DNA of 64,000 nt. Origin: an uncultured Nitrospirales bacterium. GTDB taxonomy: Bacteria > Nitrospirota > Nitrospiria > Nitrospirales > UBA8639. Made by a program: the position numbers and the translations under genes. The DNA is taken from NCBI GenBank assembly GCA_958295805.1, contig OY282373.1:777001-841000 (forward strand), written 5' to 3'. The first letter of the stretch is position 1, and each line of letters opens with the position of its first letter. Positions 8,427 through 42,925 of the stretch are shown one piece after another. A model generated the notes under the pieces. The model did not search any database and was not told where the DNA came from. It saw only the letters and a list, made by a program, of their open reading frames with translations.

Positions 8427-9071
8427 ATGAACAAGCGTCACTCTCCCAAGCGGTCAACGAGGTACCCCGTCCGCAACGCAAAGCAGGCGTCGGTCTCCCT
8501 GCCCTCTGACCAGAGCGACCCGTTACGGCAGTTGTGCGCTCAGATGCTGACGGTACTCGGGGAAGATCCCAAGCGGAGCGGCCTGGAGCACACTCCGGCG
8601 CGAGTGGCCGAGGCACTCAAGTTTTTTACCAAAGGGTATCACGAAAACGTTGAGGACGTGCTCAACGGGGCGCTGTTCCCCATCGAGTACGACGAGATGG
8701 TCATTGTCCGGGACATTGACGTGTATAGTTTGTGTGAACATCACCTGCTCCCGTTTTTCGGCAAGTGCCACGTCGGGTACATCCCGGATAAACACGTCGT
8801 CGGCCTCAGCAAAATACCGAGGATCGTCGAAGTCTTCAGCCGGCGATTGCAGGTTCAGGAGCGCCTGACCGTACAAATTGCCGAAACGCTCAAGGAGACG
8901 CTGCACCCCTTGGGCGTGGGCGTGGTCATTGAGGCGCGGCATTTGTGCATGATGATGCGAGGCGTCGAGAAACAAAACACCTTGGCCGTGACGAGTCACA
9001 TGCTCGGGGTGTTTCGCAAGCAACAACAAACGCGCGATGAATTTTTGAAACTCATTCACGCACCTTCCTAA
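8427..9071 (+). CDS. folE: GTP cyclohydrolase I
   Basis: A 214-residue protein with the FolE core: [19 protein letters not shown], then the zinc and catalytic region [25 protein letters not shown] split over consecutive residues, [16 protein letters not shown], and [13 protein letters not shown] with the second zinc Cys. It converts GTP to 7,8-dihydroneopterin triphosphate, the entry to folate, biopterin and queuosine pathways. About 30 extra basic residues precede the conserved core. It is the last gene of the nuoF-like/ferredoxin/PTPS/folE run; a palindromic repeat at 9100-9172 follows. Confidence 0.95.
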
Positions 9072-9099
9072 GCCCGAGTTTCCCCCGCTTTTTCATTCT

Positions 9100-9172
9100 G
9101 TAGTGGCGCGATCGTATCGCGCCTTCTTCGGTCTCGCGCCTGCTCCATGGCCGCATGAGATGCGGCAGCTAC
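9100..9172. repeat. Family A palindromic repeat (GTAG...CTAC)
   Basis: The element begins GTAGTGGCGCGATCGTATCG, forms a first hairpin (GGCGCGAT/ATCGCGCC), and a second (GGCCGCATGAGATGCGGC) ending in CTAC. Its two ends are complementary. It lies between convergent folE and the alpha/beta hydrolase gene and could serve as a two-way terminator. Other copies are at 10634, 25562, 36884 and 39279. Confidence 0.7.
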
Positions 9173-9210
9173 AAATCCAAATTATAGGCACAGGAGTGCT
9201 CTCGTGTGAG

Positions 9211-10032
9211 TTATTTCTCCGTTAGCCCCTCTTTTTCTCGCTTTTCCAACGAATCCAGAAACGTCCGAATCGCGGCATTAAAGGCTTCCGGATTCTCCAC
9301 GTTCGACAGATGTCCGGCTCCGGGGATCACCACAAACGTGGCCCCGGGAACGTGCCTTGACATCTCTTCCACTTCGTCCGGCGGTGAGGCCACGTCATCT
9401 TCTCCGACGATGACCAACGTCGGCACGGTGACGGTTGACAAGAGCGGTGTGGAATTCGGTCGTTCTTCCATGGCCATGAGATCGCCGATAATGCCGGAGA
9501 CCTGATTGCCCGTGATGATGGCGCGTAACTGCTCCTGCAAGTCTTTCCGGTGCGTGAGCGAAGCCGGACTGAGCAATTTCGGTATCATGAGGTCGGCAAT
9601 GGCCGCCGCCCCCCGTCGATACGCCACCTGGGCCATGGAGAAGCGAGCCGCTTTCGCGTCAGGCGCATCCGCGGTGGCTCGTGTATCGGCCAATACCAAC
9701 GCCTGAATCAACGCCGGGTATTTCCGATAAAAAGCAAAGAGGATATACCCACCCATGGACAGCCCCACGAACGTGGCTTTTGAAATCGCAAGGTGATCCA
9801 GCAAGCCCTTGACGTCGTCGGCAAACTGGTCAAGGGTATAACGCCACGTCGGCGCATCGGATTCGCCGTGCCCGCGCAGATCGATGGTGATGACACGATA
9901 CCGACCCGCAAGCCCGACGACCTGCGGCTCCCACGTGCTACGGTTCAACGGAAACGCATGAAGAAACACGACGGGTGCCCCGTGTCCCTCATCCGAATAG
10001 GCCAACTCAATGCCGTTGACGTGTACTTTCAT
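9211..10032 (-). CDS. Alpha/beta-fold hydrolase
   Basis: The 273-residue protein starts MKVHVNGIELAYSDEGHG and shows the fold's landmarks: the oxyanion segment VFLHAFPLN, the strand DLRGHGESD, the nucleophile elbow GLSMGGY with the catalytic Ser, an acidic residue in VGEDDVASP and the catalytic His in IPGAGHLSNVE. The pattern fits 3-oxoadipate enol-lactonase-like and related small esterases, but substrate cannot be read from sequence. The start is set by AAGGAG 6 nt upstream of ATG 10032. It is alone on the reverse strand between two repeats. Confidence 0.88.
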   Translation of the reverse strand: MKVHVNGIELAYSDEGHGAPVVFLHAFPLNRSTWEPQVVGLAGRYRVITIDLRGHGESDAPTWRYTLDQFADDVKGLLDHLAISKATFVGLSMGGYILFAFYRKYPALIQALVLADTRATADAPDAKAARFSMAQVAYRRGAAAIADLMIPKLLSPASLTHRKDLQEQLRAIITGNQVSGIIGDLMAMEERPNSTPLLSTVTVPTLVIVGEDDVASPPDEVEEMSRHVPGATFVVIPGAGHLSNVENPEAFNAAIRTFLDSLEKREKEGLTEK

Positions 10033-10844
10033 CAAGAACTCCTTCGTCTTCCGTCATTCCCGTATGTGTTCACTCATTCGTTGCCAAGTGCCATCCATCG
10101 GTTTGGGGCCTTCAGCCCTTGGTGCAGTTTAACGGCCCCGGAAGTTCAACGGACCCGATGACCGTTCCCTGTGCCTTGAGGCCCTTGGTGCGGTTTGACG
10201 GCCCCGGAAAGGTCATTCCCGCAGTTTTTAGCGGGAATCCATCCGACTCGTTCTGTGCTACCCTTACAATGCAAGGCAGATAAAGGGACTGGATTCCCGA
10301 TTACAAACGTCGGGAATGACAGCCCCACCGTCATTCCCACCCCCTCGTCCTTTCCACACCCTCCTGTCCTTCCCGCAACTTCCTCCTGTCCTTCCCGCCG
10401 TCGGTTAGCGGGAATCCAGCGTCGTTTCTTCTCCGCGATGAAAGACCCTTGCAAAAATCGAATGCCGGCTTCAAATTGCTTTATCTTTGATATGATCATT
10501 TTGTGGAGTATATTGGTATATCAGGGCATAAACGCTCACCTCCCCTTTCTTCAAAATGCAGCTATTTCCTATCTTTTTTGTAATTTCTACGCCTTCCTGC
10601 TTGAGGTCTAACTTAAACTGACCCACTAATTATGTAGTGGCCGCATCTCATGCGGCCAGACTACTTTATGCTGCTCAGGGGAGGGCGCCATAAGATGGCG
10701 CCGCTACAAGTTTATAAAAGGTGCCCTCTCTGAATCCGTTTGTAAAACCGCACGCTGACCTCACACCGATCGTTGCATTTGCACCGGTTTCCAATGACGT
10801 TATAGCATTGGCCTGCCTACGATGTTGGCTTCTGGAAAAACGTG
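10033..10844. other. Repeat-rich intergenic region
   Basis: This 800-bp gap has no convincing gene. It holds two copies of a short unit around CAGCCCTTGGTGCAGTTTAA and GGCCCTTGGTGCGGTTTGAC (10116 and 10182), both followed by CGGCCCCGGAA, a GTCATTCCCGC...GCGGGAATCC hairpin (10212-10240), a second copy of its arms to about 10420, and a family A palindrome at 10634-10707. A short A+T-rich stretch (10480-10620) separates them and may hold the upstream region of rarA. Confidence 0.6.
10634..10707. repeat. Family A palindromic repeat
   Basis: GTAGTGGCCGCATCTCATGC pairs locally to give GGCCGCAT/ATGCGGCC, followed by GGCGCCATAAGATGGCGCC and CTAC. The outer GTAG and CTAC ends are complementary. Confidence 0.7.
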
Positions 10845-12134
10845 ATGGTTGACGAGACTTCACCTGACCTGTTCTCTTCCTCTCCTCGGTCAAAACGCAA
10901 ACCGGCGCAAAGTTTGGCTTCTCCCTTAGCCGAGCGAATCCGTCCCCGGACGTTTGATGAATTTGTCGGTCAGGACCACGTGCTGGTCGGGGATCAATCG
11001 CTCCGACGGGCTATTGAAGCTGATAAAGTGCCGTCGTTCATTCTGTGGGGGCCGCCCGGTTCCGGGAAAACCACGTTGGCCCACGTCATTGCCCAAAAAA
11101 CGAAAGCAGCATTCATTGCATTTTCCGCGGTCGTCAGCGGCGTGCCGGAACTGCGAGCCATCATCAAAGAAGCCGTGCAACGACGGCGCATCCACGGGCA
11201 ACTCACGATTTTATTCGTCGATGAGATTCATCGCTTTAACAAGGCGCAACAGGACGCCTTTCTGCCCTACGTCGAGCGGGGGGACATTATCCTTATCGGC
11301 GCAACGACGCAGAATCCCTCCTTTGAAGTCATTGCCCCGCTTTTGTCTCGCGCCATGGTGGTCACCCTCCATGAGCTGGATGACGAGGCCATGGGAATAA
11401 TCCTGGATCGCGCCATGGCGGATGCCGAGCGCGGGCTTGGGAAATCCGGGGTGAATCTCACCGGCGAGGCTCGACACTATCTGATTCGGTACGGGAACGG
11501 AGACGCCCGATCAATGCTCACGGCCGTGGAATACGCGGTTCAGCAGGCCGGTGCCTCCTCTGATAAGCCGCTTGATCTGGATCGTCCGCACCTGGAACGG
11601 CTCCTTCAGCGACGCGTGAGATACGACAAAGACGGAGAAGAACACTACAACCTGATTTCGGCTTATATCAAGAGCATGAGGGATTCCGACGCCGATGGGG
11701 CGCTCTACTGGCTCGCTCGCATGTTGGAAGGAGGCGAGGATCCGAAATTCATTGCGCGGCGCATGGTCATTTTTGCCTCGGAAGATATTGGCAATGCCGA
11801 ACCCATGGCCATTGTGGTCGCCACGTCCGTCTTTGCCGCCGTGGACGTGGTGGGCCTGCCGGAGGCGCAAATCAATTTAGCGCAGGGAACCACGTATCTC
11901 GCGTCCCGTCCGAAAAGCAACGCCTCCTACGTGGGGTTGATTGAAGCCAGGAAGGACGCCCGGGAATTCGGCAATCTGCCCGTTCCCTTGCACGTGCGGA
12001 ACGCGGTCACGGCCCTCATGAAGGACCTGGGATATGGAAAGGGCTATCGATACGTCCATCATGACCCGCGTGCCCGAACCGAACAATCCCATCTGCCGCC
12101 GGAGTTGGAGAAGCGAAAATATTACCGGCCATAA
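10845..12134 (+). CDS. rarA: Replication-associated recombination protein A (AAA+ ATPase)
   Basis: A 429-residue RarA/MgsA/WRNIP1-family protein. It has the N-terminal RPRTFDEFVGQDHVL, Walker A GPPGSGKTTLAHV, Walker B FVDEIHRFNKAQQD, sensor 1 IGATTQNPSFEV, and the family C-terminal MAIVVATSVFAAVDVVGLPE. RarA is a clamp-loader-like ATPase acting at stalled forks with SSB and RecA-type repair. ATG 10845 is used; a GTG directly precedes it. It converges on the ABC-F gene, with stops 15 bp apart. Confidence 0.93.
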   Translation: MVDETSPDLFSSSPRSKRKPAQSLASPLAERIRPRTFDEFVGQDHVLVGDQSLRRAIEADKVPSFILWGPPGSGKTTLAHVIAQKTKAAFIAFSAVVSGVPELRAIIKEAVQRRRIHGQLTILFVDEIHRFNKAQQDAFLPYVERGDIILIGATTQNPSFEVIAPLLSRAMVVTLHELDDEAMGIILDRAMADAERGLGKSGVNLTGEARHYLIRYGNGDARSMLTAVEYAVQQAGASSDKPLDLDRPHLERLLQRRVRYDKDGEEHYNLISAYIKSMRDSDADGALYWLARMLEGGEDPKFIARRMVIFASEDIGNAEPMAIVVATSVFAAVDVVGLPEAQINLAQGTTYLASRPKSNASYVGLIEARKDAREFGNLPVPLHVRNAVTALMKDLGYGKGYRYVHHDPRARTEQSHLPPELEKRKYYRP

Positions 12135-32621: not shown

Positions 32622-33149
32622 TTACAGGTGGAGATGTTTCATGGCAGCCGCACAGAGAATGATAAAGACGCCGATCCAGAGTCCTGCTTTTTGAAACGGG
32701 ATCGGTTCAACGACCTGTTCTTCTTTTTCTTCTTCGTCTTCTTCTCCGGTGGGTTCAATGCGAAAGATCACGGTATACAAGTACAACGTCAAAATTCCGA
32801 GGACCAGGGTCAGTTTAATGAAAAAGATCGTTAAATATTTGGCATTGTGAGACAGCCCCTCACCGGTTTGCATTTCCATGAGTTCTCCCACGTAGTGGAG
32901 ATTGATGCCACCGGTGAAGAGGATAATCATGAGCAACACGCCGACGACCTTACGATACTGTTTGTAGAACGTGTCGCAAATGGGTTTGATGAATTCTTTG
33001 GGCACGGACGCTTGGAGTCCCGGGGTGACGGCCATGACGAGAAACGCCAGCCCTCCGATCCAGACGACGGCCGAGAGGACGTGTAACCAGTGAGAGAGGA
33101 TGGGAATGATCTTATTGAGATCGGAAAGAATATCGAGGAGGTCGCTCAT
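32622..33149 (-). CDS. Four-helix membrane protein, CopD/DUF-type
   Basis: A 175-residue protein with four membrane helices: residues 15-35 (LSHWLHVLSAVVWIGGLAFLV), 70-90, 108-128 and the C-terminal 150-172. The first helix has conserved His and Trp (HWLHVLSAVVWIG), as in CopD-family and related membrane haem or copper proteins. An acidic stretch EEDEEEKEEQ separates helices 3 and 4. It overlaps the radical SAM gene by 1 bp (ATG shared with its stop region), so it is co-translated. A role in haem or metal handling is inference from this neighbour. Confidence 0.75.
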   Translation of the reverse strand: MSDLLDILSDLNKIIPILSHWLHVLSAVVWIGGLAFLVMAVTPGLQASVPKEFIKPICDTFYKQYRKVVGVLLMIILFTGGINLHYVGELMEMQTGEGLSHNAKYLTIFFIKLTLVLGILTLYLYTVIFRIEPTGEEDEEEKEEQVVEPIPFQKAGLWIGVFIILCAAAMKHLHL

Positions 33150-34594
33150 CAGAATTTGAAGACGGGTTTCTCGTTGCCGAATCGTTTTTGTCGAAGCTCT
33201 TCCATCAACTCAGTCGTGATCACGGGAACGTGGTGTTCTCGGGCGTGCCGTTCCACGCCTTTCTTGACCATGGCGCGCAGGAAATACGGAATCCGGCTTA
33301 AGCGAGTTTCCGCCGCTTCATCCCAGGCCACGTCGGCCTCTTCAGGAACGTTAAACGCCACCGCGACTTTTTCTCCACCTTTCGGGGTATACAGGCACCA
33401 TTGATCTTCATCCATCCAGTCGCCGTGATCGACGTAGGGACGCGCGCGGCAGCCGCCACAGATATCGCTGTATTCGCAGTCGCCGCATTTGCCTTTCAAG
33501 TGCGGATAACGGAAGGAGTGAAAAATTTCAGAATGTTCCCACATCTCGACGAAGCTGGTTGTGCGAATATTTCCGGCGGACAGAGGCATGTAGGGGCAGG
33601 GCGTCAACTCCCCATTGGGCGTGATTCGGGCGTAATTTGTCCCAGCCAGGCAGCCGCCGCCCATGTAGCCTTGGGCCTTGGTAATGGGAGAATTCGGATC
33701 TTTTTCATAGGCCAGCCGTTTGAAATGGGGCGCGCATCGCGCACGCACCAGCATGTCCGGGTATTGATCTTGCGTCTCCACCAGATGGGAGAGCAGGTCT
33801 TCATACTGTTCAGGGGTAATGTCCGTTAATTCTTCTCCGCGTCCCGTGCAGACCATGAAAAACACGTTCAGCACGCGCGCGCCAAGCTGATGGGCCCATT
33901 CGATCACGTCGGGCAATTCTTTGTAATTCATCGGTTGCGCGCTGAAGTGAACCTGGAATTGCAGGCCGTTGCGTTTACAGGCTTCAATGCCGGCGACCGC
34001 GCCCTCCCATGCGCCCGGGACGCCGCGAAACGCGTCGTGCTTGTCCTTGTCAAGGGAGTCGATGCTGATGCCGACGCCCATGACGCCGGTCTCCACCAGT
34101 TGTTGGGCCAGGCGATCCGTAATCAACATGCCGTTCGTGCCGAACACGACCATGAACCCCCGTCCCACGGCGTGGCGGGCCACGTCCAGAATGTCTGGTC
34201 TGACGAAGGGCTCACCGCCGGTGATGACGAGCAGACACCCTTTATTGACTTCCGCGATCTGATCGATCACGCGATAACACTCTTCGGTCGAGAGTTCGTC
34301 CGATCCGCCGCGTGCTTTCGTGGTGGCGTCCAGATAGCAGTGGTCACATTTCAGATTGCAGCGTTTGGTGAGGTTCAACGCGACGAGGTACGGCTTGAAA
34401 TCATCAATGGTGCGCCCGTCGTAGGGATTGTCGGAAGTCGATGAAATGGCTGGATTCCCGCTTTCGCGGGAATGACGGAAGGGGGCGCGGGCATCACGGA
34501 AAGGGGCGTCGGCATTATGGAAGGGGGCGTGGGCATCACGGACTGGTTGTTGCCCAGGTTGTTCGAGCTGAATAACGGGAAGTGATCTGCCCAT
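33149..34594 (-). CDS. NirJ/AhbD-like radical SAM-SPASM protein with PCP_red tail
   Basis: A 481-residue protein. The radical SAM cluster motif CNLKCDHC is at about 78-85, followed by GGEPFVRPDIL. A SPASM-type Cys set lies at about 330-400 (CPYMP, CGDCEYSDICGGC). The last 50 residues match PCP_red (LSRIPYFLRAMVKKGVERHA...VPVITTELMEE). This architecture is found in radical SAM enzymes of alternative haem or haem d1 synthesis. Residues about 20-50 are repetitive (RDAHAPFHNADAPFRDARAP) and include SRESGNP, the translation of a dispersed palindrome; no start codon lies after it, so the repeat seems truly coding. It follows the USP fusion gene by 39 bp. Confidence 0.85.
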   Translation of the reverse strand: MGRSLPVIQLEQPGQQPVRDAHAPFHNADAPFRDARAPFRHSRESGNPAISSTSDNPYDGRTIDDFKPYLVALNLTKRCNLKCDHCYLDATTKARGGSDELSTEECYRVIDQIAEVNKGCLLVITGGEPFVRPDILDVARHAVGRGFMVVFGTNGMLITDRLAQQLVETGVMGVGISIDSLDKDKHDAFRGVPGAWEGAVAGIEACKRNGLQFQVHFSAQPMNYKELPDVIEWAHQLGARVLNVFFMVCTGRGEELTDITPEQYEDLLSHLVETQDQYPDMLVRARCAPHFKRLAYEKDPNSPITKAQGYMGGGCLAGTNYARITPNGELTPCPYMPLSAGNIRTTSFVEMWEHSEIFHSFRYPHLKGKCGDCEYSDICGGCRARPYVDHGDWMDEDQWCLYTPKGGEKVAVAFNVPEEADVAWDEAAETRLSRIPYFLRAMVKKGVERHAREHHVPVITTELMEELRQKRFGNEKPVFKF

Positions 34595-34633
34595 AACGCG
34601 GCCGGCCGGCTCCCTTGGAGGGTCAGGGCAGCC

Positions 34634-36688
34634 CTACTGGGCTCCTGAGCCTGTCAGTTTGGCAATGATTTCTTTAACGTTGCCGGACTTCATGGCTTCT
34701 TCCATGGTCTCTTTGGCTTGTTGGATGCCTTCGTTGGCCACGTCAAGGGTGATCTGGGTCGTCCCCAGTTTCTCGGCATGTTTAAGAATGAGCGCCTTCG
34801 TGCAATCGCGCATAAACCCTTCGGGTGCCCGTTCCAGTCGTTGAACGGCTTCGGGTTCCCAACGATAGGGAGCATCTTCAGCGGGGGACGCCTCGTTCGT
34901 GTCAGGTGCGGGAGGGGCTCCATTGGCGGCCTTATTGGAAAAAATGGGGGTATAGTCTTCGCTTGCGGCCTCTTGAATCATGGGTGCGGCGTATTCCAGG
35001 GTGATCGTAGTCATGCCGAGTTTTCTGGCGGACTTTTCAATCTTGGCTTTGGCGCGGCGGCGTTGAAATCCTGCCGGCACCGCTCGAATCGCCTCTTTCG
35101 CGTCTTTGGTCCACTGCATGGGCACGTCATCGTAGGCCAGTTGCGTTTCCAGAGCCCCTTCTTGCTGGGCAGCGGCATCGAAAATACTTTTATCCACGGT
35201 GTTGAAGGCCTCGCCCGAGGCATCGCAGATCGGACATTTGACCGGGTGGTCGCCTTTGCCAATGTAGCCGCATCCCCCACAGACGTAATACGGTTGGGAC
35301 ATCCGGTCTAAATAAGATTGCGTGGAGGGACTGACATCGGGCTTGGCCTGCGGGTCTTTTTCCTCAACCACCTGATTGACCATGCCGCTGAGCGTCGATC
35401 CCATCAGGTCTTGAGCCACGGCGTCGGTTGTCTGCATCTGATTGCGATCAACGCCGGCTTCGTCGAGTTGGCCGCCCAGGGCCTTCATCGCGTCCATCGC
35501 CCCTTTCGGGAGAATGTCACCGACCGCGGCATCCACCACCGAATTACTGATAATGGTATGGCCTTTCTCAATGGCGTAGCGGTGAATGGCGGTTTTGGCC
35601 ACCCCGCGGGCAAAGACCGGGACCTTTTCCATCCGCAACAAAGCCTCTTCCGTCCAGGCAATGGTATATTCCGCCTGTGTGTCAATGGGAGGCACGTATT
35701 TTTTATTGGACACCAGGACGTTACAGGGTACCGCACGCAGCAGGTTCTCGGCGTTGCTGCCGATGTCCATGTCGTCATCGCTGTGGACGCCGATGCGACC
35801 GATAATCAGCAACCAGGGTTTTTCCTTCCGAACGTATTGCAGGACTTTTTCAAAGGCTTTCCCGTCCAAGAGCGTCGTTCGGATGTCCGACCCTTCGTCC
35901 TGGGCCACTTCGCGAGAAATATCCAAATGCGACTGGTAAATTTTGGCTAATCCGCTGTCGATCACTTCCTCGTGGAGTTTTTCCTGTTCCTTGAAGCGAA
36001 AAACCTTCCCGGCCTCTTCGTTCAACACCCCGGAAATGCTGTGGAACGCGGCATAGTGAAAATACGGATCAAAGGCGGAAATCGCCTCAACCGGCTTATT
36101 CAACGCTTTGCCCAAGGCCAAGCCGGTTTTCAATCCGCCGAAACTATACGGGCTGCCGTCCACCGCGACCACGATTTTCCCGCCGTTCATGGGAGCCAAG
36201 TCTTTCACGATGAACATGTCGGAATGGCGCACGCGACGCAGCACCCGTTCCGTATTGCTGCCGATCACGGAATCCTTGACGGCGCCCACGCCGAGCGCGC
36301 CCATGATGGTCAGATCGTAACCGTTGGCGTGAATGTCCTCGGCCAACACCTTCCAATTCCGGCCTTCCAGCGAGCGCCGTTCCAACGGCAGATTGGATTC
36401 CGTACATTTCTGATCCACGTAGTCCAAATAAGAATCCGTAATAATCTGGAGCCCGCGGGTGATGAGAGAATCATGAATCTTCCGTTGACGGTCCAGTTCT
36501 TTTTCATCGTGATATTCTTCAGGCAGGCCTGCTTCCATCTGCTTAAACCGTTTGTCGTGCATCTTGGCGGCATAGACGTGACTGCCGACGATTTTCGACC
36601 CGAATTCCTTCGCCAACTGCACACCCAGATCAACGGCCATGTTCGAATGGTCCGAATTGTCAACCGGGATGTAGATGGTTTTATACAT
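34634..36688 (-). CDS. Double USP, rubredoxin-like and triple PCP_red fusion protein
   Basis: A 684-residue soluble protein. ATG 36688 follows AAGGAGG by 6 nt. Residues 1-155 and 165-330 are two universal-stress-protein domains (MYKTIYIPVDNSDHS; KIVVAVDGSPYSFGG; GSNTERVLRRV; GSNAENLLRAV). Residues about 345-395 are a PCP_red domain (WTEEALLRMEKVPVFARG). At about 470-500 is a rubredoxin-like site, YVCGGCGYIGKG...CPICDASG. Two more PCP_red domains follow (WTKDAKEAIRAVPAGFQRR and WEPEAVQRLERAPEGFMRD). PCP_red domains occur in protochlorophyllide reductase subunits and redox proteins. The fusion suggests an iron-redox stress protein, co-transcribed with the radical SAM gene that carries the same domain. 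Confidence 0.85.
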   Translation of the reverse strand: MYKTIYIPVDNSDHSNMAVDLGVQLAKEFGSKIVGSHVYAAKMHDKRFKQMEAGLPEEYHDEKELDRQRKIHDSLITRGLQIITDSYLDYVDQKCTESNLPLERRSLEGRNWKVLAEDIHANGYDLTIMGALGVGAVKDSVIGSNTERVLRRVRHSDMFIVKDLAPMNGGKIVVAVDGSPYSFGGLKTGLALGKALNKPVEAISAFDPYFHYAAFHSISGVLNEEAGKVFRFKEQEKLHEEVIDSGLAKIYQSHLDISREVAQDEGSDIRTTLLDGKAFEKVLQYVRKEKPWLLIIGRIGVHSDDDMDIGSNAENLLRAVPCNVLVSNKKYVPPIDTQAEYTIAWTEEALLRMEKVPVFARGVAKTAIHRYAIEKGHTIISNSVVDAAVGDILPKGAMDAMKALGGQLDEAGVDRNQMQTTDAVAQDLMGSTLSGMVNQVVEEKDPQAKPDVSPSTQSYLDRMSQPYYVCGGCGYIGKGDHPVKCPICDASGEAFNTVDKSIFDAAAQQEGALETQLAYDDVPMQWTKDAKEAIRAVPAGFQRRRAKAKIEKSARKLGMTTITLEYAAPMIQEAASEDYTPIFSNKAANGAPPAPDTNEASPAEDAPYRWEPEAVQRLERAPEGFMRDCTKALILKHAEKLGTTQITLDVANEGIQQAKETMEEAMKSGNVKEIIAKLTGSGAQ

Positions 36689-36883
36689 CAGAAGCCTCCT
36701 TACGACCCTTCCCACCCGGATTCGTCTTGAGTGAAACGCATAAAATGAAAGACCTGAAAAGTCACTCCTGAGACGCCAGAAAATTCTGAAATCGATCTTA
36801 GCACCGCCCCTTTGAGCAATGCAACCAACCCTTCAGGAAGGATGGCGGCTACGTTTCATGGCCCATGCAGCCGTCTCTTAGGC

Positions 36884-37047
36884 GTAGCGGCACCATCTCA
36901 TGGTGCCCCCCGTCACGGTGGCGGATGGCGGCATGAGATGCCGCCCTACGTTTCATAGGCCATGCAACCGTCTCTTGGGCGTAGCGGCCCCATCTCATGG
37001 TGCCGTCCGTCACGGGTGGCGGATGGCGGCATGAGATGCCGCCCTAC
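36884..37047. repeat. Two tandem copies of family A palindromic repeat
   Basis: Copies at 36884-36949 and 36981-37047 run from GTAGCGGCACCATCTCATGG to ATGCCGCCCTAC, with a 97-bp period and the same CATGCAACCGTCTCTTGGG-like spacer as the 25.6-kb array. Confidence 0.85.
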
Positions 37048-37156
37048 ATCATTCCCGCAGTTCCCCTCCTGTCATTCCCGCAGTTTTAAGCGGGAATCCA
37101 CGTTGGGTTTTCAAAGAAAGTCCGTCACGGTAGAAAGACAGCGGCCTAAGATGCCC

Positions 37157-37306
37157 CTTTCCCCTCTCCCCTCGCGGGAGAGGGCAAGGGTGAGGGGGAG
37201 GAGAGGAGGAGGCAAGGGGAAAGGAGAGGCAAAGGGGAAGAAAAACCCCGATTCCCATCACAACTATCCCCTCTCCCCTTGAGGGAGAGGGCTAGGGTGA
37301 GGGGTA
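37157..37306. repeat. Family C palindromic repeat, two copies
   Basis: CCCCTCTCCCCTCGCGGGAG with GAGGGCAAGGGTGAGGGGGA, and TCCCCTCTCCCCTTGAGGGA with GAGGGCTAGGGTGAGGGG, are two near-identical hairpins about 100 bp apart. Confidence 0.8.
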
Positions 37307-37485
37307 GTTAGGGTGATGGGTAGAGTGAGCCCAAGAGTGAGGAGGAAAAAACCCCCGAACCAAAACAAAAAAACTCCCCAACCCCCCCCACCGTGTATAC
37401 AACATCTATAGAGAATGATCCGCTATAAAATGATTCAAAACGATCCGAAAAAACTCCAAACGCGCAACCATTGCTCGTCTGCCCA

Positions 37486-37970: not shown

Positions 37971-38089
37971 TTCATGCCCCATTGAGGCTCAGGCCGCTTA
38001 AAGAAACAGAAGAGGAGAAAAAAAGTCACAAACGGGACTTTGGGGTGGAAATTATTTTTTAACCTTTTAATTTCGTGAGGAGGGTGGCA

Positions 38090-39031
38090 ATGAGAACAGG
38101 AGAGAAATTCAGACTGAATAACCTGCCCAGAACATTTGGGGTATACCTTGGATGCACTGCTTTATTCTTGGGCGGGATGACGTTACCGGCTTATGGGCAG
38201 GTATCGAGCCCCAGTCCGTGTCCCACTCCCCCGGTAGCAAGTACCGGCGTCACCGTCCCCACTGACGACAATCCTTCTTCGTATGCTGGTGGCTGTGGGG
38301 CAAATGCTGGGACTGACGGCAGCCTCGCCATTGGTGAAAAGGCAAAGGTAGAGCCATATCTAGAGGGAGAAACCATGAGAGGGGCTTCCGGCATTGCCAT
38401 CGGTAATGAAGCCACCGTCAGAGGCGAGAACAGCGTCGCCATCGGTGCGGGAGCGCGCGCCGGTGCTGAGGACGCCGCCGGCAACGACATCGCTGTAGAG
38501 AACGCCGTAGCATTGGGTTCGGGCGCTCAAGTCACTGGAAATAACGGCGTCGCCATCGGGTCGGGCGCAAGGTCAGCAACAGACGGGATCGCCATCGGTC
38601 AGGGTGTGACCGCCGGCGAAAACCAGATCAGAATCGGTAAAACGTCGCAAACGGACGTGCTGATCGGACGGTATAATTTGCAGACCATGGACAGCAGCGT
38701 CACCACCAACACCGCCGGCATCGCCACCAACCGCAGTAACATCGCCACCAACACCACTGGCATCGCGAGAAATGGTTCCGCCATTGCCGCCAACCGCCAG
38801 GATATCGACACCAACCAATCCGGTGTGGCCATGGCGATTGCGTTCGCCAATCTCCCGTCCATCGCGAGCACACGAGGAAACGTGGGGGTGGCCTTCGGCT
38901 CCTTCGAGGGCAGCACCGCCGGTGCCGTTGGGGCCAACTACAATGTGATGAAAAACATGAACGTCAAGGCAGGCGTCTCCTTCGCTGACGATTCAGTTGG
39001 ATTTGGCGGCGGCGTTGGATGGGGATTTTAA
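38090..39031 (+). CDS. Short trimeric autotransporter adhesin (YadA-like)
   Basis: A 313-residue protein. ATG 38090 follows GAGGAGG by 6 nt. It begins with an extended signal peptide (LPRTFGVYLGCTALFLGGMT...AYG), then a Hep/Hag head of repeated SVAIGxGA-type units (GIAIGNEATVRGENSVAIG, GVAIGSGARSATDGIAIG), then a stalk of repeated TNTAGIATNRSNIATN heptads, and a four-strand YadA anchor ending GGVGWGF. Such proteins form homotrimers on the outer membrane and mediate adhesion. It is very short for the family, with only one head block and a brief coiled coil. The XRE gene is divergent upstream. Confidence 0.88.
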   Translation: MRTGEKFRLNNLPRTFGVYLGCTALFLGGMTLPAYGQVSSPSPCPTPPVASTGVTVPTDDNPSSYAGGCGANAGTDGSLAIGEKAKVEPYLEGETMRGASGIAIGNEATVRGENSVAIGAGARAGAEDAAGNDIAVENAVALGSGAQVTGNNGVAIGSGARSATDGIAIGQGVTAGENQIRIGKTSQTDVLIGRYNLQTMDSSVTTNTAGIATNRSNIATNTTGIARNGSAIAANRQDIDTNQSGVAMAIAFANLPSIASTRGNVGVAFGSFEGSTAGAVGANYNVMKNMNVKAGVSFADDSVGFGGGVGWGF

Positions 39032-41807: not shown

Positions 41808-42838
41808 TCTAAATTCACAAACGAAGTGCAACACCTTGCTAAGGTGTTGTCATGGGAACCCACTATCACCACCTCACCCTTGAAGACCGATGTGACATGG
41901 CCCGTCTACACGCCGACGGGCGCTCGCTCCGGCAAATCGCGGCAACTCTGGATCGCCCGCCATCAACCGTGGCTCGCGAGATGAAGCGCAATCGTTCCCG
42001 CATCCAGGGCTACCAGCCCCGCTATGCGGAGCAGCAGGCCCGCGCCCGCCGGTGGCGCGGCGCCAAGTTGGACCGCGATGCCCCCCTTCGCACCACAGTC
42101 CTCACCCACCTCCAACAGGGCTGGACCCCCGAGCAGGTGGCCGGGCGCCTCGCCCGCGACGCCGGTCGGTCGGTTATCTCCCACGAAACCATCTACCGCT
42201 TCCTCTACGCCCAGATCGCCCGGACGAAAACCTATGCCTGGCGCCACTATCTCCCTCACGCCAAAGCCACCCGCGGCCGCCGACGCACACGTCGCAGCCC
42301 CGCCGCCTTGATGGCTCACCGCCGCCCCCTCGCCGACCGCCCCGCCGCCGCCGCCGACCGCCAGACTCCCGGCCATTGGGAAGCCGATCTGATGCTCTTC
42401 CGCACCTACGGCCAAGCCGTCCTCACTCTCCACGAGCGCACCTCCCGCCTCCTCCTTGCCGTGCGCCCCCCGGGCAAAGCCGCCGCCCCCATCGCCCACG
42501 CCCTCACCCACCTCCTCACCCCAATGCCCCCTCACGGCCGCCAGACCGTCACCTTCGACAACGGCACCGAATTCGCCTGCCATCACCACCTCCATGCCCT
42601 CGGCATTGAGACCTTCTTCTGTGACCCCTACGCCCCCTGGCAGAAAGGCGGCGTCGAGAACGCCATCGGCCGTCTGCGCCGCACGCTGCCCCGCAAAACC
42701 GACTTGGCCACCCTGTCCGACCAGCGGTTTCATCACTTGGTTCATGCGTACAACCACACCCCGAGGAAATGCCTCGGGTATGCCACGCCCGCGGAGATTT
42801 TTATCCACCAAGTGTTGCACTTGAAATGTGAATCCACA
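41808..42838 (+). mobile_element. IS30-family insertion sequence, copy A (1031 bp)
   Basis: Left end TCTAAATTCACAAACGAAGT and right end, inverted, TGTGGATTCACATTTCAAGT share ATTCACA and AAGTGCAACAC. Ends were set by comparison with copy B. The left flank is TTC, as in copy B, but the right flank is GCA, so there is no target duplication. The right end abuts a truncated DUF1640 gene, which suggests an adjacent deletion or recombination. Confidence 0.9.
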
Positions 42839-42925
42839 GCATGGCCACGTCGTCCTTGGTGGCGAGATTCTCACCGATGCCTTCGGCAAAGGTGGCAACC
42901 AGAACACGGGCTTGCTTCTCGTTGA
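41852..42925 (+). CDS. IS30-family transposase, copy A
   Basis: The reading frame has an N-terminal HTH (LTLEDRCDMARLHADGRSLR) and a DDE core: HWEADLMLF (first Asp), TFDNGTEF (second Asp), QKGGVENAIGRLRR (Glu). These are IS30 signatures. The frame has no stop within the element: it runs through the right end (HQVLHLKCEST) and terminates in flanking DNA at 42925, adding about 29 foreign residues. The catalytic core is intact and may be active. The ATG follows the left inverted repeat by about 20 bp. Confidence 0.93.
   Translation: MGTHYHHLTLEDRCDMARLHADGRSLRQIAATLDRPPSTVAREMKRNRSRIQGYQPRYAEQQARARRWRGAKLDRDAPLRTTVLTHLQQGWTPEQVAGRLARDAGRSVISHETIYRFLYAQIARTKTYAWRHYLPHAKATRGRRRTRRSPAALMAHRRPLADRPAAAADRQTPGHWEADLMLFRTYGQAVLTLHERTSRLLLAVRPPGKAAAPIAHALTHLLTPMPPHGRQTVTFDNGTEFACHHHLHALGIETFFCDPYAPWQKGGVENAIGRLRRTLPRKTDLATLSDQRFHHLVHAYNHTPRKCLGYATPAEIFIHQVLHLKCESTAWPRRPWWRDSHRCLRQRWQPEHGLASR

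Follow-up and report, generated by a model that had tools for sequence, protein, structure and literature searches.

The window (the whole stretch of DNA that was analysed, 64,000 nucleotides) comes from the closed 2.9 Mb genome of an uncultured member of the Nitrospirales. Three adjacent genes on its reverse strand encode a large fusion protein, a radical SAM enzyme and a small membrane protein. Their features are as follows (window coordinates):

32622..33149, reverse strand: CopD-like four-helix membrane protein, 175 aa; its start overlaps the stop of the radical SAM gene (TGATG)
33149..34594, reverse strand: radical SAM/SPASM enzyme with a C-terminal PCP_red domain, 481 aa, placed in a sister clade of AhbD (Pfam, NCBIfam, tree)
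33191..33325, reverse strand: PCP_red domain of the radical SAM enzyme, residues 424-468 (Pfam; matches the solved structures 2kru and 2l09)
33386..34387, reverse strand: radical SAM and SPASM part of the enzyme, residues 70-403 (CX3CX2C at C79, CX2CX5CX20C from C370, plus C287 in a CAPH motif, C315 and C333)
34452..34474, reverse strand: palindromic repeat element (CATTCCCGCGAAAGCGGGAATCC), incidental, read in frame within the N-terminal linker of the radical SAM gene
34634..36688, reverse strand: fusion protein, 684 aa, tandem USP - PCP_red - rubredoxin knuckle - PCP_red - PCP_red (Pfam, ORF coordinates)
34730..34861, reverse strand: PCP_red domain 3 of the fusion, residues 610-653 (profile match)
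34988..35113, reverse strand: PCP_red domain 2 of the fusion, residues 526-567 (profile match)
35198..35287, reverse strand: rubredoxin-like CxxC...CxxC knuckle of the fusion, residues 468-497 (RUBY_RBDX below cut-off; four conserved Cys)
35525..35656, reverse strand: PCP_red domain 1 of the fusion, residues 345-388 (Pfam, local profile)
35708..36178, reverse strand: USP domain 2, residues 171-327 (Pfam Usp, tandem-USP fold; H211, Q235, E236 and H239 at positions matching domain 1; G-x2-G-x9-GS motif)
36194..36688, reverse strand: USP domain 1, residues 1-165 (Pfam Usp, tandem-USP fold; conserved H37, H44, E52, Q68, R69 and H72 in a helical insert; G-x2-G-x9-GS nucleotide motif)

The fusion protein starts at the ATG at 36688, with an AAGGAGG site upstream of it. 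The two USP and three PCP_red domains that the initial annotation had assigned to this ORF are confirmed by Pfam, which matches Usp in two stretches (E=8.5e-30, 104.6 bits) and PCP_red in three (E=5.4e-30). With a nucleotide motif in each of its two USP domains the protein is of the tandem type, and its predicted fold matches tandem USPs such as TTHA0350, Rv2623 and UspE/YdaA, which likewise possess two such domains per chain and a G-2x-G-9x-G(S) motif in each (Foldseek, the match covering the USP part; TMt 0.6-0.86). It differs from these proteins in its invariant His/Glu-rich helical inserts, its tail of PCP_red domains and rubredoxin knuckle, and its location in an operon with a radical SAM gene. 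The insert residues listed above are invariant across 25 relatives, including two bare tandem USPs (approximately 31% identity), and they correspond between the two domains (H44/H72 with H211/H239). As they are retained even in bare USPs and at matching places of both domains, they suggest a metal or haem site; the insert helices of the model are of low confidence (parts with pLDDT of about 40-70).

Whole-protein scores for PCP_red (PF08369, cut-off 32.5 bits) are 103.6 bits for the fusion and 51.8 bits for the radical SAM enzyme, while the second copy of the fusion taken alone scores 28.2 bits. A local PCP_red profile, seeded partly with these very domains, gave 49-68 bits per real domain and at best 8.1 bits in 4,000 shuffled copies, and Pfam provides independent agreement; the domains are thus not chance matches. 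At the rubredoxin-like site C470, C473, C485 and C488 are each at least 90% conserved in the alignment, the whole module being missing from the deepest members (family f11), and RUBY_RBDX, sub-threshold on the fusion itself (E=2.6e-5, 24.0 bits; cut-off 26.5), passes on a longer orthologue (55 bits). Upstream of the fusion, positions 36850-37320 are dense in repeats, with two GTAGGGCGGCATCTCATGCCGCCATCCGCCAC-type elements and two CCCTCTCCC...GGGAGAGGG palindromes recognised by eye. Farther along the window, neighbours at 38075-39031 and 41852-42925 resemble, on a reading of the sequence alone, a YadA-type trimeric autotransporter head/anchor protein and an IS30-type transposase.

The radical SAM enzyme matches Radical_SAM (1.1e-23), SPASM (3.8e-10) and, at its C-terminus as initially annotated, PCP_red (8.3e-14). 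All eleven of its cluster cysteines, comprising the radical SAM CX3CX2C motif and the auxiliary-cluster ligands, are invariant across 22 orthologues and five AhbD proteins. The N-terminal linker of the gene (34450-34540) is longer than in relatives through the in-frame palindromic repeat. The enzyme shares with AhbD (TIGR04545), the haem b synthase or coproheme decarboxylase, the radical SAM/SPASM fold, these cysteines, the CAPH motif and approximately 35-40% identity over residues 62-412, but it scores only 315.5 bits on the AhbD model against a cut-off of 500. On the NirJ2 model (TIGR04055) it scores 331.9 bits, also against a cut-off of 500; it has the NirJ auxiliary motif CX2CX5CX20C, yet the other haem d1 genes are absent from the order. 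Members of the rSAM-PCP_red group score about 300-350 bits on both models, whereas AhbD-type proteins of related genomes score 441-522 bits on that of AhbD (516-522 for the genuine AhbD of f11 genomes). Models of PqqE, mycofactocin and peptide maturases match as well, far lower (at most about 155 bits for the peptide maturases). In a maximum-likelihood tree, which carried a long-branch warning, rSAM-PCP_red and AhbD are split with support of 100/99. Given the failed cut-offs and this separate clade, the enzyme is, on sequence evidence, a sister of AhbD and not a member of it, despite the common cysteines and CAPH motif. It further differs from AhbD at positions fixed within the clades, T331 and P334 on either side of C333 among them, and in its PCP_red domain, which the AhbD of related genomes does not possess. 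Two f11 genomes and one f24 genome encode both the enzyme and a genuine AhbD-type protein, and in these the enzyme is therefore a paralogue with a role of its own.

Of the BchB models, the last 50 or so residues alone find a match and the nitrogenase-like catalytic part does not, so there is no DPOR subunit here by this measure. What is in common with BchB/ChlB of protochlorophyllide reductase (PDB 2kru, 2l09, 2xdq, 3aek) is the small helical PCP_red domain and a system that includes a P-loop Fe-S ATPase; the carriers of PCP_red here, unlike BchB/ChlB, are USP, radical SAM and Zn-ribbon fusions.

The third gene encodes a protein with four hydrophobic segments, as would be expected of the four-helix membrane protein initially proposed, and the TGATG overlap with the radical SAM gene is present. 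W21, H23 and K112 are invariant and H20 and H85 nearly so. Four transmembrane helices with conserved His in TM1 and TM2 are features that it shares with CopD and with four-helix haem or copper membrane proteins, but the match to CopD is sub-threshold (PF05425, 28.5 bits; cut-off 32.1), the protein is a short single unit and a fold search with its model returned no significant match, the faint likeness to cytochrome bd and STEAP being unusable. HemJ was considered and rejected, as Pfam and NCBIfam scans at E <= 0.01 did not match the protein to that family.

The closest named relatives of the fusion protein, among the best 80 of 552, are Nitrospirales and Nitrospira MAGs (89-90% identity) and UBA8639 (83%); all of these 80 are from Nitrospirota except one record labelled Nitrospinota. 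Within the phylum, the fusion was identified in 64 of 148 genomes and the enzyme in nearly all of those. There are two clear exceptions: in G018, a fragmented genome, the enzyme was not found, and in G127 the enzyme was found and the fusion was not. The operon proteins are about 80-90% identical across Nitrospirales and about 60% in the class. Linkage of the genes in relatives, on which the initial annotation depended, holds throughout: where a named-relative locus had enough flanking DNA, the enzyme directly follows the fusion (68/68) and the four-helix gene comes next (61/61), three linkage loci having been counted by hand on account of overlapping alignments where the genes meet. Fusion and enzyme lie on separate contigs in G121 and G007. 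The three-gene operon is a conserved, core feature of the Nitrospiria lineage; conservation at the level of the order sits within one clade and therefore does not represent many independent events.

The partner of the enzyme varies in architecture. It is a bare tandem USP beside the rSAM-PCP_red gene in G056 and G140, possesses one PCP_red domain in G008 (where the contig stops within the gene) and two in f11, has three with the rubredoxin knuckle in f15 and most Nitrospiria, and reaches five with extra CxxC knuckles in f5/f8. Since bare tandem USPs adjoin the enzyme in two genomes, the simplest reading of these sequences is that the USP-enzyme pairing is older than PCP_red in the USP protein, and that PCP_red and rubredoxin were gained stepwise.

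PCP_red domains extend beyond this operon, whose PCP_red proteins are part of a set found class-wide. The four copies in two genes counted by the initial annotation are correct but understate the system, as the source genome encodes 11 in five genes. In addition to the fusion and the enzyme, these encode a protein of 329 aa with four copies, located near S1/SppA genes; a Zn-ribbon protein of 247 aa that has two copies and adjoins an Mrp/NUBPL ATPase; and a protein of 160 aa, likewise with two copies, whose gene belongs to a cytochrome bd-like/DUF420 cluster. An Mrp/NBP35-type ATPase adjoins the gene of the Zn-ribbon/2xPCP_red type in all nine loci read, from the source family to f11, and the initially suggested shared partner of the PCP_red proteins gains support from this P-loop Fe-S ATPase. 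The ATPase resembles the Mrp/NBP35/ApbC Fe-S carriers in its PF10609 match and its KGGVGKS and CPSC motifs, and differs in being an extra paralogue tied to the Zn-ribbon/2xPCP_red protein; on MrpORP it scores 247 bits (cut-off 450). The source genome has three strong PF10609 paralogues, among which this one, at about 103.0-103.9 kb of the genome, has the lowest score (238 bits), and the other Nitrospiria tested have a paralogue in the same range, with the same three-way set recurring.

A near-complete set occurs in one cluster of G095, comprising the fusion, enzyme, four-helix, 4xPCP_red, 2xPCP_red, Mrp and DUF420 genes and a gene for a CADD-like haem-oxygenase-fold protein. A CADD-like protein of this fold lies between PCP_red genes in two class-level relatives (L133:5567-6253, L116:6731-7501). 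In G140 the USP/rSAM pair adjoins a cytochrome bd-like gene, and in f24 a PCP_red protein is also found beside a B12-type radical SAM enzyme. In G066, G056 and G046 (L118-L120), a PCP_red protein of 127-133 aa has a B12-binding radical SAM enzyme on one side and an aconitase-C-like gene on the other.

To our knowledge, PCP_red is known only as the tail of a chlorophyll-synthesis enzyme: in DPOR, BchB with its PCP_red domain works with the P-loop Fe-S ATPase BchL. Mrp is a distant superfamily relative of this ATPase. The DPOR complex of BchB and BchL has been described (PMC7948495). A literature search on PCP_red or PF08369 in non-phototrophs, or on this gene combination, found nothing relevant. 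All parts of the system come from known families, and no described function was found in the literature for the enzyme clade, the PCP_red-Mrp association or the operon.

The haem genes of the source order include HemE, a HemY/CgoX-type oxidase and a HemQ-type protein, the last being present in all Nitrospirales tested; HemN is absent from the Nitrospiria tested, the source order included, and present in G008. With HemE and the oxidase present and HemN absent, the haem route of the order looks coproporphyrin-dependent. The HemN/HemW-type match in the source genome is very weak (1.8e-5) compared with those of sister genomes (1e-42 or better), for which reason HemW may be lost or broken there. 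Ferrochelatase (PF00762) is missing from all seven sampled genomes of the source family and from two of genus g8 (G072, G125), with hemE and hemY directly adjoining each other there, while other Nitrospiraceae retain hemE-hemH-hemY. In the source genome hemE lies next to hemY/CgoX with hemH missing (L104, G000:C1:1393000-1412000, at 9031-11552). A single class II chelatase candidate was found in this genome, a 177-aa CbiX-like protein (L214:6745-7278; G000:C1, about 572.7-573.3 kb) that may replace ferrochelatase. Nearly all genomes that lack HemH carry the rSAM-PCP_red enzyme. That this enzyme is an AhbD orthologue accounting for the missing ferrochelatase was considered and rejected in that form: families f11, f15 and f16 have AhbAB-type proteins and f11 its own AhbD, while AhbAB is lacking from f1, where a HemQ-type protein is present. 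In distant relatives AhbD-like proteins are located with hemE-hemH, which agrees with the finding that some bacteria employ AhbD in the coproporphyrin-dependent route to haem (PMC7242693, PMC10548856). In Nitrospirales, the PCP_red enzyme and its operon do not lie in a haem operon or beside haem genes.

The operon probably handles haem-type molecules or iron-sulphur chemistry. The closeness of the enzyme to AhbD and NirJ2 suggests a tetrapyrrole substrate, and the best reading, although held tentatively, is a step on a tetrapyrrole for which an Mrp-type protein would supply Fe-S clusters or electrons. The enzyme would act on a haem-type or other tetrapyrrole in side-chain or maturation chemistry of the AhbD/NirJ kind. 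Its PCP_red domain, like those of the fusion and the Zn-ribbon/PCP_red protein, may be a docking module for a common Fe-S P-loop ATPase or its cluster and electron supply, by analogy with PCP_red-bearing BchB and BchL and from general knowledge of DPOR. The fusion would form a scaffold sensing nucleotides and metal or haem, with its rubredoxin knuckle carrying electrons or metal, and the CopD-like protein may receive or bind haem at the membrane, perhaps for unusual cytochrome bd-like oxidases. This whole arrangement, from substrate to membrane partner, is the likeliest of the explanations considered but, taken as a whole, less likely than not.

The main rival is that the enzyme is an oxygen-independent coproheme decarboxylase, equivalent to AhbD, which backs up HemQ in the coproporphyrin-dependent pathway at low oxygen or peroxide and is regulated or fed by the USP fusion. 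Every AhbD cluster ligand is retained, no other AhbD-like protein occurs beside the enzyme in Nitrospirales (one match per genome at 1e-60), G083 encodes it without HemQ or HemN, and the haem gene content and the documented use of AhbD in such pathways would suit this role. It is nevertheless less likely, albeit a serious contender, as the enzyme falls well short of the AhbD cut-off, coexists with genuine AhbD-type proteins in three genomes and with HemN in G008, and is accompanied by a HemQ-type protein in all Nitrospirales tested. The initial annotation had suggested, with a perhaps, haem or haem d1 assembly under redox stress. The haem part is plausible in view of the sister relationship to AhbD; for haem d1, NirJ2 is among the two closest models, but no AhbAB/NirDLGH-type protein (PF17805) was found in the source genome or in its order as sampled, cytochrome cd1 (PF02239) is absent from the source genome with few, partial and weak matches in the order, and the genomes with NirS and NirDL (G006, G007, G066) are distant from the source. 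Barring a siroheme decarboxylase of a kind not yet recognised, haem d1 biosynthesis is therefore rejected for the source organism and retains hardly any probability.

Two further explanations dispense with a tetrapyrrole. The operon might be an Fe-S or metal module of the low-oxygen response, with PCP_red limited to mediating assembly with Mrp-type carriers and the radical SAM protein serving in the maturation of some other metalloprotein. The Mrp link fits this, as do the USP nucleotide motifs, the tandem-USP fold and the conserved His/Glu residues of both inserts; the main text of a proteomic study of Nitrospira marina reports that several UspA proteins rise at low oxygen, but does not identify the operon proteins or say whether the fusion is included (PMC8115632). 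With the nearest relatives of the enzyme acting on haem precursors and a CopD-like membrane partner conserved, we regard such a module as unlikely. By analogy with RiPP maturases, the enzyme might instead modify a peptide or protein, its target being a PCP_red or USP segment of the fusion itself. The SPASM architecture is compatible with this, as is the almost strict association with either the fusion or the bare USP ancestral to it, and the near-invariant, unusual segments of the USP inserts could serve as the target. Scores above 300 bits for AhbD/NirJ2, against the much lower ones for peptide maturases, nonetheless speak against it; no small precursor gene was seen and the substrate would be a large folded protein, all of which makes this improbable.

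In its most extended form, the tetrapyrrole reading would have the Nitrospiria run a previously unrecognised pathway organised by PCP_red. The AhbD-sister enzyme, a dedicated Mrp-type ATPase and PCP_red/rubredoxin/USP scaffolds would together resemble a dissected DPOR-type system, making or inserting a modified haem or other tetrapyrrole for unusual respiratory cytochromes; this is speculative, and we consider it doubtful in full. The complete ammonia oxidisers belong to Nitrospira, a major group of nitrite oxidisers, among which the operon described here is near-universal and highly conserved without an assigned function. The link between PCP_red and Mrp provides PCP_red with a testable candidate binding partner, and haem supply in these bacteria becomes a concrete question in view of both the AhbD-sister enzyme and the hemH loss in the source family.
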